Part shown: positions 20,374-57,220 of the stretch, piece by piece | Layout of the letters: every line of letters starts with the position of its first letter | Numbering within the stretch: position 1 is the first letter of the stretch | Translations under genes and position numbers: made by a program | The notes under the pieces: model-generated | The model's database searches: none | Told to the model about the DNA's origin: nothing | What the model saw: only the letters and a program-made list of their open reading frames with translations | From: Snodgrassella alvi | GTDB taxonomy: Bacteria > Pseudomonadota > Gammaproteobacteria > Burkholderiales > Neisseriaceae | DNA length: 64,000 nucleotides | Direction of reading: 5' to 3' | NCBI RefSeq assembly: GCF_040741455.2 | Contig: NZ_CP160328.2 | Location: 1,426,001 to 1,490,000 of the forward strand

Positions 20374-21612
20374 ATGCGAAGTTTACTGTCCTATAAAAGC
20401 CGCCTCTTTTTCGGTTCCTTGCTGGTCATGCTACTCCCTCTGGCCATCATGGAGCCCATCAAAGGCTTCTCACAAGGCCGAGCCGCCTTCATCACCAGCA
20501 TCATCCTTGCCGGCATCGCCCACCTACTCAACACAAAATCTCTGTCTGTATTCAGCAACTTTCCCGGCCGCAAATCCGCCGTTATCGCCCTGCCACATAC
20601 TTTCTTCTGGTTTTTCGGCATGTGGATGGCAGCCAAATTCTTCAACCTGCCTTACACCGTATGGTTCCTATTCATGGCCGGCTGCCTATCCCTCTTCCTG
20701 TGCATCGCCTACATCTACTACCGCAACAAATTTATCACCACCTATGCCTATTTACCCTACGGCCGTGCCATTAACGCAGATCAGCTACCCAACGTTAATT
20801 GGATCAAACTCACCAGCCCAGATCTCCCCGTAGCCACAAATATCAACGGCATCGTAGCTGACTTGCACGAACCCGAGCTTGACCACCATTGGCAAAAATT
20901 TCTCGCCAGCCAGACCCTCGCCGGCATGCCCGTATACAATATTCGTCAAGTAGAAGAATTCCTTACCGGCCGCGTTAAAATTCATCATCTGTACGAAAAC
21001 GACCTAGGCTCACTCCTACCCTCACCAACCTATGTACTGATAAAACGCTTAGCCGATATCCTTCTTATTCTTCTGTCTTGTCCCATTACCTTACCAGTAA
21101 TGCTTGTCACAGCCATCGCCATCAAACTTGAAAGCCCCGGTAGCGTTCTCTTTCGGCAAAACCGTGTCGGCCGCGGCGGCCATGAATTCTGTATATACAA
21201 ATTCCGCAGCATGTGCAGCGATTCCGAAAAAAATGGTGCCCAGATGGCACAACTAGGCGATAGCCGCGTTACCCGCATCGGCCATATCATCCGCAAAACC
21301 CGCATCGACGAATTGCCCCAGTTCTGGAACATTCTCAAAGGCGACATGAGCCTCATTGGCCCCCGTCCCGAACAAAAAATATTTGTCGACCGGTTTATTC
21401 AAGAAATTCCCTTTTACGACTACCGCCACATCGTCAAACCTGGCATCTCCGGCTGGGCTCAGGTCACACAGGGCTATGCCGCCGACACTGAACAAACCCA
21501 AATAAAAATCGAGCATGATTTTTACTACATTAAGCACTTTTCCTTTTCCCTCGACATCCTTATCTTCTTTAAAACCCTCAAAACCATGCTCACAGGCTTC
21601 GGAGCACGCTGA
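20374..21612 (+). CDS. Polyprenyl-phosphate sugar-1-phosphate transferase (initiating enzyme)
   Basis: A 412-residue membrane enzyme that should load the first sugar phosphate onto undecaprenyl phosphate. Helices occupy roughly residues 10-125, a soluble segment follows, then one helix (LADILLILLSCPITLPVMLV) leads into the bacterial sugar transferase domain: ESPGSVLFRQNRVGRGG, YKFRSM, TRIDELPQFWN, MSLIGPRPE and VKPGISGWAQV. This is the PglC/WcaJ/WbaP catalytic core. The reduced N-terminal part lacks the full CoA-binding-like domain of long WbaP proteins. It closes the locus; an AT-rich island starts just after. Confidence 0.9.
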   Translation: MRSLLSYKSRLFFGSLLVMLLPLAIMEPIKGFSQGRAAFITSIILAGIAHLLNTKSLSVFSNFPGRKSAVIALPHTFFWFFGMWMAAKFFNLPYTVWFLFMAGCLSLFLCIAYIYYRNKFITTYAYLPYGRAINADQLPNVNWIKLTSPDLPVATNINGIVADLHEPELDHHWQKFLASQTLAGMPVYNIRQVEEFLTGRVKIHHLYENDLGSLLPSPTYVLIKRLADILLILLSCPITLPVMLVTAIAIKLESPGSVLFRQNRVGRGGHEFCIYKFRSMCSDSEKNGAQMAQLGDSRVTRIGHIIRKTRIDELPQFWNILKGDMSLIGPRPEQKIFVDRFIQEIPFYDYRHIVKPGISGWAQVTQGYAADTEQTQIKIEHDFYYIKHFSFSLDILIFFKTLKTMLTGFGAR

Positions 21613-21705: not shown

Positions 21706-22086
21706 ATGTTTAAACCTAATAGCGTTATTGTTTATGTCAAAGATGTCGATACTAGTACAGAATTTTACACAAAAATACTAGGGCGTCCTCCTATCAAAAC
21801 TTATCCTGGCTTCGCTGTATTTTTATTGAATGATAATTTTATTTTAGGGCTACAAGAGGCTGATAAAATAACGCCAAAGGCACCTAATCATTACGGTGGT
21901 TTTGAGTTGTCATTTAATGATGTAACAAAAAATGATGTAGATGAAATTTATTCGACATGGAAGAAATTAAACGTCAAAATTGAACTTGAACCACAAATGC
22001 TCGATTTCGGATACACATTTGTAGGAAATGATCCAGATGGTCATCGACTTCGTGTTTGTGCTACCGACACTTCAAAGTTTGAATAA
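21706..22086 (+). CDS. VOC-superfamily (glyoxalase/bleomycin-resistance-like) protein
   Basis: A 126-residue single-domain VOC protein: VIVYVKDVDTSTEFYTKILG at the N-terminus, GGFELSF in the middle, and VGNDPDGHRLRVC at the end. These give the paired beta-alpha-beta-beta-beta modules. Family members bind metal and act as dioxygenases, isomerases or drug-binding proteins; here the function is open. A good Shine-Dalgarno (AGAAGGAA) precedes ATG 21706. The base composition is far more AT-rich than the glycan genes just upstream, pointing to separate origin. Confidence 0.85.
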   Translation: MFKPNSVIVYVKDVDTSTEFYTKILGRPPIKTYPGFAVFLLNDNFILGLQEADKITPKAPNHYGGFELSFNDVTKNDVDEIYSTWKKLNVKIELEPQMLDFGYTFVGNDPDGHRLRVCATDTSKFE

Positions 22087-25196: not shown

Positions 25197-25370
25197 ATGT
25201 ATAAGCATTATTGGATAAGTTGTATCTCTTTAATATTGATTAATTTTATTATTTTGTTTCCATTATTACGGATGATTTATGGCCATTTTGGTAACAGGTG
25301 GGGCTGGTTTTATTGGCTCCCACACTACAGTTCAGTTGTTAAATGCCGGCCACGATGTGGTTATTATTGA
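25197..25370 (+). CDS. Possible small membrane-peptide ORF overlapping galE
   Basis: A 57-codon frame with a good Shine-Dalgarno (GAGGA) upstream of ATG 25197 and a hydrophobic segment at residues 6-24 ([18 protein letters not shown]). It runs 92 nt into galE in another frame, where its sequence is no longer protein-like. It may be a leader peptide for galE or chance. A TATAAT at 25160-25165 is suitably placed upstream. Confidence 0.25.
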
Positions 25371-26307
25371 TAATTTGTGCAATGCTTCAAGTGTAGTTTT
25401 AGAGCGTATCAAAGAGATTACTGGCAAGGAAGTCACGTTTTATCAGGGGGATATTCGTGATCGTGGTTTGCTGCAACAGATCTTTGCTCAGCACAGAATT
25501 GAAAATGTTCTGCATTTCGCCGGTCTGAAAGCGGTGGGCGAAAGTGTGCGCGAGCCTCTGAAATATTATGATAATAATGTCAGCGGCAGTTTGATTCTGG
25601 CAGAAGAAATGGCTAAAGCTGGTGTATTTAATCTGGTATTCAGCTCTTCGGCTACGGTTTACGGTACGCCAGCTACGGTACCTATTGATGAGTGTGCAGC
25701 TACCGGCGGCACAACTAACCCCTATGGTACGTCGAAGTATATGGTGGAACGGATGCTGATGGATATTCAGGCAGCCGATGCACGCTGGAGTGTGACGCTG
25801 CTGCGTTATTTTAATCCGGTGGGTGCGCATGAATCGGGACTGATGGGTGAAGACCCGAACGGAATTCCGAATAATCTATTGCCTTATATCTGTCAGGTAG
25901 CGGTAGGTAAGCTGGCTCAGTTGTCGGTATTTGGTGACGATTATGAGACGGCGGATGGCACAGGGGTGCGCGATTACATTCATGTGATGGATCTGGCTGA
26001 TGGCCATTTATCTGCTATGCGCGCTACTGCAAATCGCTCCGGTGTACATATTTACAATCTGGGTACGGGACAGGGCTATTCGGTGCTGGAAATTGTACGT
26101 GCTTTTGAAGCAGCCAGTGGACAAAAAATCCCTTATCAGATTGTGCCACGTCGCGCGGGCGATATTGCTGTGTGTTTTGCCAACCCTGAGCGTGCGGCGC
26201 AGGAGCTGGGCTGGCAGGCACAGCGTGATCTGGCCTGTATGATGGCGGATGCATGGCGCTGGCAACAGCAAAATCCGCAGGGCTATGGTGCTGATGCTGT
26301 GGCTTAA
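25279..26307 (+). CDS. galE: UDP-glucose 4-epimerase (GalE)
   Basis: A 342-residue extended SDR that interconverts UDP-glucose and UDP-galactose. Visible are the NAD motif [10 protein letters not shown], the DIRD segment, the catalytic SSSATVYG (Ser) and YGTSKYMVE (Tyr-x3-Lys), and NPVGAH, all standard for GalE; length matches the E. coli enzyme (338). It supplies UDP-galactose for LOS or capsule glycans and lies beyond the AT-rich island, 3.7 kb from the glycan locus it may serve. A weak ribosome-binding site precedes ATG 25279. A strong bidirectional terminator follows. Confidence 0.96.
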
Positions 26308-26327
26308 ATATTTGATTTGAGTAGTAT

Positions 26328-26482
26328 TTAAAACACCAGACCCACTGATTATGCAGTGGGTCTGGTGTTTTCGGTTTTTGAGTTTTGATGCAAAATTTAA
26401 CGCTAATCGCTAAGCCGCTCCTGAGATAAAGTTGATAGATGCTTGAGGTCTTTACCGGTTAACTATTGCTAACTAACTGGTG
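26328..26482 (-). ncRNA. Candidate Fur-repressed small RNA (NrrF-like architecture)
   Basis: Inferred from signals: a consensus-like promoter on the minus strand (26489-26516), an expected start near 26482, and an 18-bp intrinsic terminator ending near 26328. This defines a transcript of about 155 nt. The strand has no ATG anywhere between promoter and terminator, so it is unlikely to code for protein. A Fur box overlaps the promoter spacer, so transcription should rise when iron is short. Neisserial NrrF has the same logic (Fur-repressed, non-coding, targets iron-using enzymes), but I have not compared sequences and do not claim homology. Confidence 0.6.
26330..26371. terminator. Strong bidirectional terminator after galE
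   Basis: Perfect 18-bp stem (26330-26347 with 26354-26371; core ACACCAGACCCACTG) and 6-nt loop. Rightwards it is followed by TTTTCGGTTTTT and ends galE; leftwards it is followed by TTTTAAAT and would end the candidate sRNA. Confidence 0.93.
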
Positions 26483-26488
26483 ATGCTT

Positions 26489-26516
26489 ATTATAATATAA
26501 TGAGAATTATTATCAA
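26489..26516 (-). promoter_or_regulatory. Sigma70 promoter with Fur box in the spacer
   Basis: Minus strand: -35 TTGATA (26511-26516), 16-bp spacer, -10 TATAAT (26489-26494). Within it, 26501-26515 reads TGAGAAT-T-ATTATCA on the plus strand, one mismatch from the 7-1-7 Fur consensus TGATAAT-N-ATTATCA. Fur-Fe(II) bound here would block RNA polymerase. Confidence 0.72.
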
Positions 26517-26700: not shown

Positions 26701-28152
26701 ATGCCTATTTCTACTCCAACCGCTCAACTTGTACATCAACAGTTACTGGCCGATAACGAGCTGGCTGTAGCTGATTTTACTCATGCGCTGTCGTTGATGA
26801 GCGCACATCATATTGATTATGCCGATATTTACTGTCAACGCAGTACTTATGAAAGCTGGCATTTGGAAGAAGGCATGGTGAAGTCGGGCAGTTTTCAGAT
26901 TGAGCAGGGTGTAGGGGTACGTGCAGTCAGCGGAGAAAAAACGGCGTTTGCTTATGCAGATAATCTAAACGTGCAGGCGTTAACCGATGCGGCGCAGGCG
27001 GTACGGGCAATTGGTCAGGCTGGCCAGCAACGCTCAGTTGGTTTACAAACGCGAAATCTGGCCAAGCCGCTGTACGGAATGGCTAATCCGATGCTGAGCT
27101 TGGATGCGGCTGCGAAAGTGGCTTTATTGCAGCGGGTAGAAACGCTGGCTAAAGCTGCGGATCCGCGCATTGTGCAGGTAATGGCTGGTCTGGTATGTGA
27201 ACATGAGCTGATTTATCTGGCACGGCTGGATGGCCGGATACACACTGACGTCCGTCCGCTGGTGCGTTTGTCGGTTACGGTGATTGCGAAGCAGGGTGAA
27301 CGGCGTGAACAAGGCAGTAGTGGTGGAGGTGGCCGCTTTGATTTGGGCTATTTCGATGAGGCCAAAGTTAAAGAGTATGTGGATATTGCTGTGGCACAGG
27401 CGCTGACCAATCTGGAAGCACGGCCGGCTCCGGCCGGCTCGATGACGGTGATATTGGGCAACGGCTGGCCGGGTGTGCTGCTGCATGAGGCAGTTGGACA
27501 TGGTCTGGAAGGTGATTTTAACCGCAAGGGCACCAGCGCCTTTGCTGGCCGTCTGGGTGAGCGGGTAGCGGCCAAAGGCGTAACGGTGGTGGATCAGGGT
27601 AATATAGCTGAGCGCCGTGGTTCGCTGAATATAGATGATGAAGGCAATGCCACCCAGCGCACAGTGCTGATTGAAGATGGTATTTTATGTGGCTATTTAC
27701 AGGATGAAACCAATGCTCGTCTGATGGGTGTACCGGTTACCGGTAATGGCCGCCGTGAAAACTATGCTTCGGCACCGATGCCACGTATGACCAATACTTA
27801 TATGGAAAATGGTGTGCTTAATCCAGAAGAAATTCTTGCTTCTGTGGATAAAGGTTTGTATGCGGTGAATTTTGGCGGCGGGCAAGTTGATATTACCAGT
27901 GGCAAATTTGTTTTCAGTGCCTCAGAAGCTTGGTGGGTTGAAAATGGTAAGCTGCAGTATCCGGTAAAAGGTGCCACCATTATCGGCAGTGGACCTGAAG
28001 TTTTGAAACATGTGAGTATGATTGGTAATGACAGCCGTTTGGACAGTGGTGTAGGTGTGTGCGGTAAAGACGGACAAAGTGTGCCGGTAGGGGTGGGACA
28101 ACCAACGCTACGCATTGATGCCGGCCTAACTGTGGGCGGCAGCCAGACCTGA
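26701..28152 (+). CDS. tldD: Metalloprotease TldD
   Basis: A 483-residue TldD/PmbA family protein, the zinc-bearing partner of the TldD/TldE protease that trims unfolded peptides and antibiotic precursors. The zinc motif HEAVGHGLEGD (HExxxH at residues 262-267) is intact, and the C-terminal metal ligand region with CGKDGQSVPVG is present. ATG 26701 gives the family N-terminus; an in-frame GTG at 26644 would add a hydrophobic stretch not expected. It is preceded by 180 nt containing the divergent Fur-box promoter and is followed by its own terminator. Confidence 0.94.
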   Translation: MPISTPTAQLVHQQLLADNELAVADFTHALSLMSAHHIDYADIYCQRSTYESWHLEEGMVKSGSFQIEQGVGVRAVSGEKTAFAYADNLNVQALTDAAQAVRAIGQAGQQRSVGLQTRNLAKPLYGMANPMLSLDAAAKVALLQRVETLAKAADPRIVQVMAGLVCEHELIYLARLDGRIHTDVRPLVRLSVTVIAKQGERREQGSSGGGGRFDLGYFDEAKVKEYVDIAVAQALTNLEARPAPAGSMTVILGNGWPGVLLHEAVGHGLEGDFNRKGTSAFAGRLGERVAAKGVTVVDQGNIAERRGSLNIDDEGNATQRTVLIEDGILCGYLQDETNARLMGVPVTGNGRRENYASAPMPRMTNTYMENGVLNPEEILASVDKGLYAVNFGGGQVDITSGKFVFSASEAWWVENGKLQYPVKGATIIGSGPEVLKHVSMIGNDSRLDSGVGVCGKDGQSVPVGVGQPTLRIDAGLTVGGSQT

Positions 28153-56340: not shown

Positions 56341-57220
56341 CTTTGCCCACTGGCAACAACAGGTACAAAACCATACCGAACAAACCCTAAATCGCCTATT
56401 GCCCTTATCTGACGAGCTACCGGCACCCCTGATTGATGCCATGCGCTATGCTGCGCTGGATGGCGGCAAGCGCTTGCGTCCGATGCTGGTTTTCGCTGCT
56501 GCCGAGCTGGGAAACAACATAGCAGAGGCTGTGGATAACGCCATTGCCGCAATCGAATGTATCCACATTTATTCACTGGTACACGACGATATGCCCGAAA
56601 TGGACAACGACAGCTTGCGTCACGGCAAAGCTGCCTGCCACATTCGCTACACACCAGCCACCGCTTTACTGGTTGGCGACGCGCTGCAAAGCATGGCATT
56701 CAGCCTACTCAGCCGGCCCACCACACTCTCACCCGAGCGTCAGCTGCAAATGGTACAGACACTGGCTCAGGCCGCCGGCTATAGTGGTATGGCAGGAGGA
56801 CAAGCCATTGATCTGGCCTGTGTCGGTAAAAGCCTGAATCAAAATGTACTTGAGCATATGCATCAGCTCAAAACCGGTGCCCTAATCCGGTCAGCCGTAG
56901 CCCTTGGCGGACTCTGCTGTAACGATATCGATCAGCACCAACTTACTGCTCTTGATGCCTATGCTGGTCATTTGGGTTTGGCTTTTCAAGTAATAGATGA
57001 TGTACTCGATTGTGAACAGGATAGCGGCGTTCTGGGAAAAACAGCCGGAAAGGATGCACAGGCCAATAAACCCACCTATGTCAGCCTGCTGGGTCTGGCT
57101 TCAGCGCGCCAATATGCTGAAAACTTAATACAAAAGGCCTTGGAAGCACTGGCTGGTTTTGACCATCGCGCTGAGCATCTGCGCGAACTGGCTCAATTTG
57201 TCATTGCCCGCAATCATTAG
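56324..57220 (+). CDS. ispA: Farnesyl diphosphate synthase (IspA)
   Basis: A 298-residue prenyltransferase that makes farnesyl diphosphate, the precursor of undecaprenyl phosphate and quinone tails. First Asp-rich motif [11 protein letters not shown], second FQVIDDVLD, and GGKRLRPML near the start. The length equals E. coli IspA (299). The start is a TTG at 56324 with a good SD (AAGGAG, 8 nt upstream) inside xseB, so the two are coupled. dxs does not follow in this window. Confidence 0.95.

Follow-up and report, generated by a model that had tools for sequence, protein, structure and literature searches.

A probable NrrF orthologue upstream of tldD in Snodgrassella alvi, with a candidate pairing site in the sdhC leader

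Does the minus strand between galE and tldD of Snodgrassella alvi encode a small RNA repressed by Fur and, if so, is this RNA the counterpart of neisserial NrrF or an independent iron-responsive RNA? A preliminary description of the region had proposed the former and left the latter undecided. We analyzed both questions in a 64-kb stretch of DNA, here called the window, which corresponds to positions 1426001-1490000 of a single-contig genome of 2,291,622 bases. The TldD encoded in the window is 99.8% identical to that of S. alvi wkB298 over 480 residues (100% in the best segment).

Promoter, Fur box and predicted transcript

Pfam searches agreed with the neighbors originally named: a galE-like epimerase gene (25279-26307, plus strand; Pfam Epimerase) and a tldD metalloprotease gene (26701-28152, plus strand; Pfam PmbA/TldD), to which the putative RNA lies head-to-head. 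A second galE fragment was seen upstream of galE in genome G012 (L013:3-257). The promoter scan recovered the minus-strand promoter as first described, with a -35 element TTGATA (26511-26516), a 16-nt spacer and a -10 element TATAAT (26489-26494) that together match 11 of 12 consensus positions; both elements are retained in most aligned relatives. A predicted Fur box (26501-26515) with one mismatch to the 7-1-7 consensus TGATAATNATTATCA lies within this promoter, also as claimed, and it is the sole Fur-like 15-mer with at most one mismatch in the 64 kb (0.02 expected from shuffles). The complete 2.29-Mb genome lists eight distinct sites at this threshold, and at up to two mismatches it holds 72, vs. 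26 for the reversed pattern. A composite pattern of promoter plus Fur box, which was fitted to the site, occurs once in the window and in none of 100 shuffles. Upstream of tldD, a Fur box with 0–2 mismatches was found in 13 of the 14 genomes of the genus; in the 14th (G006) a contig end cuts off tldD. Genes for both Fur and Hfq were found in the same genome as the window. Judged from the site, the RNA can be predicted with good confidence to be repressed by Fur.

The predicted transcript runs for approximately 153 nt (26331-26483, minus strand), the span of its match to the Rfam NrrF family (RF01416); its DNA was matched in 13 of 14 genus genomes, this one counted. Reading the minus strand confirmed that it has no ATG, here over 26326-26483. 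An alignment of 30 chosen loci has in common the -35/Fur/-10 block, a GGAG...TA block and a ACUCAAAA(A)CC motif ahead of the terminator. At the 5' end, a stem-loop (26452-26483) has 14 bp in two sister species and one A-C mismatch in the window, at a position where an A-U pair is formed in just two of nine genus sequences. This stem-loop is predicted in most of 30 related Neisseriaceae sRNAs (mean fold z of -2.5, z > 0 in 2 of 30), and within the genus none of 14 pairs showed two-sided changes in a covariation test. The 5' hairpins of L012 and L013 (genomes 94% and 96% complete), where sdhC/D were not matched, are quite different.

Alignment and folding place the mostly unpaired GACCUCAA (26443-26450, minus strand) where Neisseria carries its CCAUUAAAC core, and it is a possible lineage-specific seed. 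Among 23 Neisseria sequences that core, as CCATTAAAC, hardly varies; in Snodgrassella it is replaced. Closer to the 3' end, alignment and k-mer counts identify CUCAAAAACC (26373-26382, minus strand) as the window's version of the ACUCAAAA(A)CC motif seen across the family. It is followed by an 18-bp hairpin (26330-26371), discussed below.

Relationship to NrrF

A default Rfam scan of the window reported no family. Under permissive settings, positions 1-160 of the 160 in the NrrF model align at 26483-26331 on the minus strand with 37.3 bits (E 5.9e-6 for 351 bases and all 4227 families), a score that exceeds that of every other of the 4227 families at the locus and falls short of the 60-bit Rfam gathering score. 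The covariance search that had been suggested as a check therefore gives a full-length match from the predicted start, below the cut-off. Matches to RsaD and RsaJ were weaker, and were discarded as driven by AT-rich sequence and the terminator. Two whole-genome NrrF scans did not list the locus (one had no match, the other two weak matches elsewhere), perhaps because just part of the candidates, 150 of 177 and 30 of 189, were scored. Among 12 other loci of the genus, seven match NrrF at E ≤ 0.05 over the 4227 families, a level not reached at L006, L008, L012, L013 and L179. In a scan across the family, NrrF matches at E ≤ 0.1 were found in 50 of 83 genomes, 21 of which reach the 60-bit cut-off; those listed for G000 and G005 sit elsewhere and resemble chance.

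The genomic position of nrrF gives a further clue. Among 30 NrrF loci, all from Neisseria (genus g5), 19 have tldD head-to-head within 1.5 kb, and longer stretches covering the other 11 and nine further matches added 15 of 20. In all, nrrF is head-to-head with tldD in 34 of 39 Neisseria loci; the remaining five stretches are without tldD, and in one of them (L212) the contig runs out at nrrF in the direction in which tldD would be expected. The gap between the two genes is 179–229 nt in 7 of the 15, and 5.3–6.7 kb in five loci with a high NrrF score. The same arrangement, together with the Fur promoter, was found in 13 of 14 Snodgrassella genomes. A box with at most three mismatches accompanied by CTCAAAA(A)CC was also found in two Eikenella genomes (genus g3), Conchiformibius L189, Neisseria L185 and G080 (L191); L190 has the motif and a box with four mismatches, and L180 and L184 have the box with the motif absent. 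The Conchiformibius stretch that carries the nrrF-like locus also has a match to the sRNA NmsRb (L189:17-106; 42.1 bits, cut-off 52). Upstream of tldD, 11 of 20 longer-stretch loci (L181 Stenoxybacter, L186, L187 Alysiella, L188, L192-L198) showed no NrrF-like feature. The same held for L059, L060, L062, L063, L064, L066, L068, L071 and L094, in which no box within approximately 0.9 kb of tldD had fewer than four mismatches; some loci of these two sets are from the same genomes, and nrrF may sit farther off.

On the opposite strand the terminator hairpin alone scores 27.2 bits with RF01416, and evidence independent of it was therefore sought. Run unfiltered on 1 kb of the window, a terminator-free model built from 23 Neisseria sequences has its top match exactly in place, with 5.7 bits (E 0.15). 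At E ≤ 1 this model finds one of 13 Snodgrassella-genus sources, Snodgrassella sp. CFCC 13594 (L014; 24.6 bits, E 0.0015), and it also finds Eikenella L182 and Conchiformibius L189. A wider terminator-free model (R2) had no hit in the window; L009 (E 0.015) was the only one it found among the 11 other genus loci supplied. Homology of the RNA body was accordingly set aside as too weak in core Snodgrassella to carry orthology. This weakness, and the absence of the petA core, are what would be expected if an independent Fur-regulated sRNA had arisen upstream of Snodgrassella tldD, similar to NrrF in logic and terminator only. We consider such an origin improbable, as Snodgrassella, Neisseria, Eikenella and one Conchiformibius genome have the same tldD-side place, a similar promoter and the 3' motif, and as the more distant CFCC 13594 is recognized by its body.

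Another reading concerns the end of the transcript, namely that the promoter drives a long antisense transcript into galE and that the hairpin ends the galE mRNA only. The terminator scan calls the hairpin on the plus (galE) strand only, which agrees with the first-described role as galE terminator; as for the roughly 155-nt RNA described as ending at it, the hairpin and a predicted length near that value stand, while a scored minus-strand terminator does not. The U tail on the sRNA strand is short, with four U in the window and approximately three in several sister species. Tails are equally short at some Neisseria NrrF loci, however (e.g., GCGTTT then ATCG at L019), and the Neisseria loci, in which galE was not seen next to nrrF, have a hairpin at a comparable distance. 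The hairpin also covaries: across nine Snodgrassella sequences 100% of cells are paired, and 5 of 17 counted pairs show two-sided changes, compared with none when the pairing is slid. Since the aligned conserved blocks end at the hairpin as well, a long antisense transcript is very unlikely, and the hairpin presumably terminates the sRNA too.

Fur boxes are palindromic, and a box approximately 185 nt from the tldD start could act on that gene instead, but this is the least credible reading, given that the box sits within the minus-strand promoter and that in L064 (= G061) and L068 (= G026), where nrrF and tldD are >5 kb apart, nothing in the 0.9 kb ahead of tldD comes closer to a Fur box than five mismatches.

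Because of synteny, promoter, 3' motif and the intermediate species, the predicted RNA at 26331-26483 is very probably the Snodgrassella orthologue of NrrF. The choice between counterpart and independent RNA, left undecided at first, is thereby tipped in favor of the counterpart by the position beside tldD, the Fur-box promoter, the full-length Rfam match and the 3' motif. It shares with Neisseria NrrF a Fur-box promoter, a length of approximately 160 nt, the lack of coding potential and the head-to-head position with tldD, along with the parts of the RNA itself: 5' hairpin, GGAG block, ACUCAAAACC and terminator. It differs in that the CCAUUAAAC petA core is replaced, no petA was found and the score is below the Rfam cut-off. 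Lying outside that cut-off and without the petA core, it is therefore best described as an NrrF variant, orthologous by position and parts.

Candidate targets

The 3' motif has a counterpart in the leader of sdhC. ACUCAAAA(A)CC is present in 21 of 21 compared sRNAs, and the complementary GGUUUU(U)GAG lies upstream of sdhC in 19 of the 21 cognate genomes, beginning 33–46 nt before the start codon as assigned here; the two leaders without GGTTTT(T)GAG (wkB298 and G066) carry GTTTTGAG. Reading the sdhC leaders by eye had first revealed the motif, as GGTTTTGAG, in both genera. The k-mer count came afterward and needs no motif to be supplied; it returned GTTTTGAG as the commonest 8-mer of the 21 leaders (17 of 21) and ACTCAAAA as that of the sRNAs (21 of 21). 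The largest cognate 8-mer complement was shared by 13 of 21 pairs, vs. a maximum of 4 in 1000 shuffles, and by 8 of 13 representatives, vs. a maximum of 3. Pairing was stronger in cognate sRNA-leader combinations than in permutations (p 0.016 across the 21 pairs, p 0.004 for Neisseria), and no such preference was detected within Snodgrassella (p 0.48). The Neisseria preference is consistent with extensions of the pairing, e.g., AUCAG in NrrF with CUGAU in the leader in three genomes.

In 464 kb of the same genome (the window plus 20 stretches, the sdh stretch being included by choice), eight sites could pair with the motif. Of these, sdhC alone offers a convincing leader: five sites lack a start codon at a suitable distance, another precedes a questionable GTG ORF, and the last is the sRNA's own locus. 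In 377 kb of Neisseria DNA there were 34 such sites. Twenty belong to nrrF loci, and among the 14 that do not, 3 are followed after 28–57 nt by an ATG ORF of 119–224 aa. Within the window, GGTTTTGAG occurs three times (21577-21585, 21898-21906 and 56867-56875; 0.59 expected), none of them in a convincing leader.

Energy calculations were less specific. The suggested target prediction against sdh, when carried out with whole-sRNA hybrid energies, did not single these genes out, with sdhC ranked 15, sdhD 23, sdhA 31 and sodB 60 of 61. With opening energies included, the best totals were near zero, at -2.6 (sdhC), -0.7 (sdhD) and -0.1 kcal/mol (sdhA), and with a restricted seed, chosen after the fact, sdhC ranked 8 of 377 for the window's sRNA. 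The sdhC pairing in the window's genome has a one-base bulge, with 5 A facing 4 U. Of the 14 genomes of the genus, 10 gave matches to sdhC/D, and CTCAAAACC is retained in G012 and G013, though no sdhC was found there.

This last observation, and the place of ACUCAAAACC immediately before the terminator, would fit an NrrF orthologue in which the motif is kept for Hfq/ProQ binding or as an A-rich terminator leader, the sdhC match having some other cause. Such a role is on balance rather unlikely, considering that the leader motif is found at similar spacing in both genera, with an equal count in 0 of 1000 shuffles, and that cognate pairs are preferred in Neisseria. We thus regard the sdhC leader as a fairly probable direct target of the RNA, and this candidate pairing as the most valuable new lead to come from the sequences.

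Two other targets were considered. A search for the petA Rieske family found none in the 14 Snodgrassella-genus genomes (control genomes responded), and the CCAUUAAAC petA-pairing core is absent from the aligned Snodgrassella sRNAs. The segment UGCAUCAAAAC (26382-26392, minus strand; sRNA nt 92-102) is exactly complementary, over 11 nt, to codons of sdhA near FDA, a weak lead that is not above background. Its complement occurs at five places in the genome: the segment itself, sdhA, an Fe-SOD-like gene, rnc and a ubiH-like gene (names read from the proteins; L149-L152). Because the sdhA pairing is broken in S. communis and sdhA ranks 31 of 61 by whole-sRNA energy, this candidate was rejected and the match was not taken as evidence. 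The strongest NrrF pairing around the start of sdhA varied in position among 11 Neisseria genomes.

Proposed mechanism and significance

With iron present, Fe-Fur bound at 26501-26515, between the -35 and -10 elements, would block RNA polymerase; when iron is short, the RNA of approximately 153 nt would be made. Computed folds suggest that it forms the 5' stem-loop and the terminator hairpin, with portions of the central region and the A-rich 3' segment unpaired. From the conserved complementarity, the 3' motif ACUCAAAA(A)CC would then pair with GGUUUU(U)GAG approximately 40 nt upstream of the sdhC start codon (sRNA segment ACUCAAAAACC with leader segment GGUUUUGAG), lowering sdhCDAB expression and so sparing iron. 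Downstream of the 5' hairpin, the stretch that in Neisseria pairs with petA appears to have been replaced, probably by another seed. The account as a whole (NrrF orthologue, Fur repression and sdhC-leader pairing) seems likely.

RyhB and PrrF are Fur-repressed, iron-sparing RNAs with sdh among their targets. The Snodgrassella RNA is predicted to be functionally alike, as an iron-sparing Fur sRNA, and their families are not among the Rfam matches listed at the locus. The gene pmbA is a relative of tldD and shares its Pfam name. HrrF of Haemophilus influenzae, which adjoins pmbA, is likewise a Fur-regulated sRNA; it differs in being approximately 97 nt long and from another bacterial family, and according to its authors its sequence does not resemble that of NrrF (PMC4144887). 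Two families of Fur-regulated sRNA are thus found beside related genes, NrrF by tldD and HrrF by pmbA.

In the published NrrF survey (PMC5586341), nt 21-34 of NrrF pair with petA at -43 to -30, nt 19-86 are put forward for the sdhD-sdhA region as a pairing neither validated nor delineated, and the nrrF locus is described as missing or truncated in the remaining commensal Neisseria examined. The complementarity found here points to the sdhC leader, and not to the sdhD-sdhA junction proposed there, as the place at which a Fur-controlled RNA would repress sdhCDAB. The sdhC site is a new lead relative to that survey, and the founding NrrF papers of 2007 and 2009 may already propose it. In the literature searched, no paper joined Snodgrassella with NrrF, NrrF with tldD, or Snodgrassella with iron and a Fur box, and a search for Snodgrassella alvi with sRNA returned only papers unrelated by title.

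We lean toward a model in which, across the Neisseriaceae, NrrF represses sdhCDAB by one ancient ACUCAAAA(A)CC seed that lies before the terminator and pairs approximately 40 nt upstream of sdhC, with the 5' seed as a second, faster-evolving module (petA in Neisseria, rewired in Snodgrassella) and the sdhD-sdhA region not the main site. If true, a single RNA holds a stable seed apart from a rewired one, and NrrF is more widely distributed than the Rfam cut-off or the survey suggests (PMC5586341). The NrrF-sdh interaction, called unvalidated and undelineated in that survey, would gain an exact and testable site, and Fur-sRNA control of respiration would reach beyond Neisseria to a symbiont of the bee gut.
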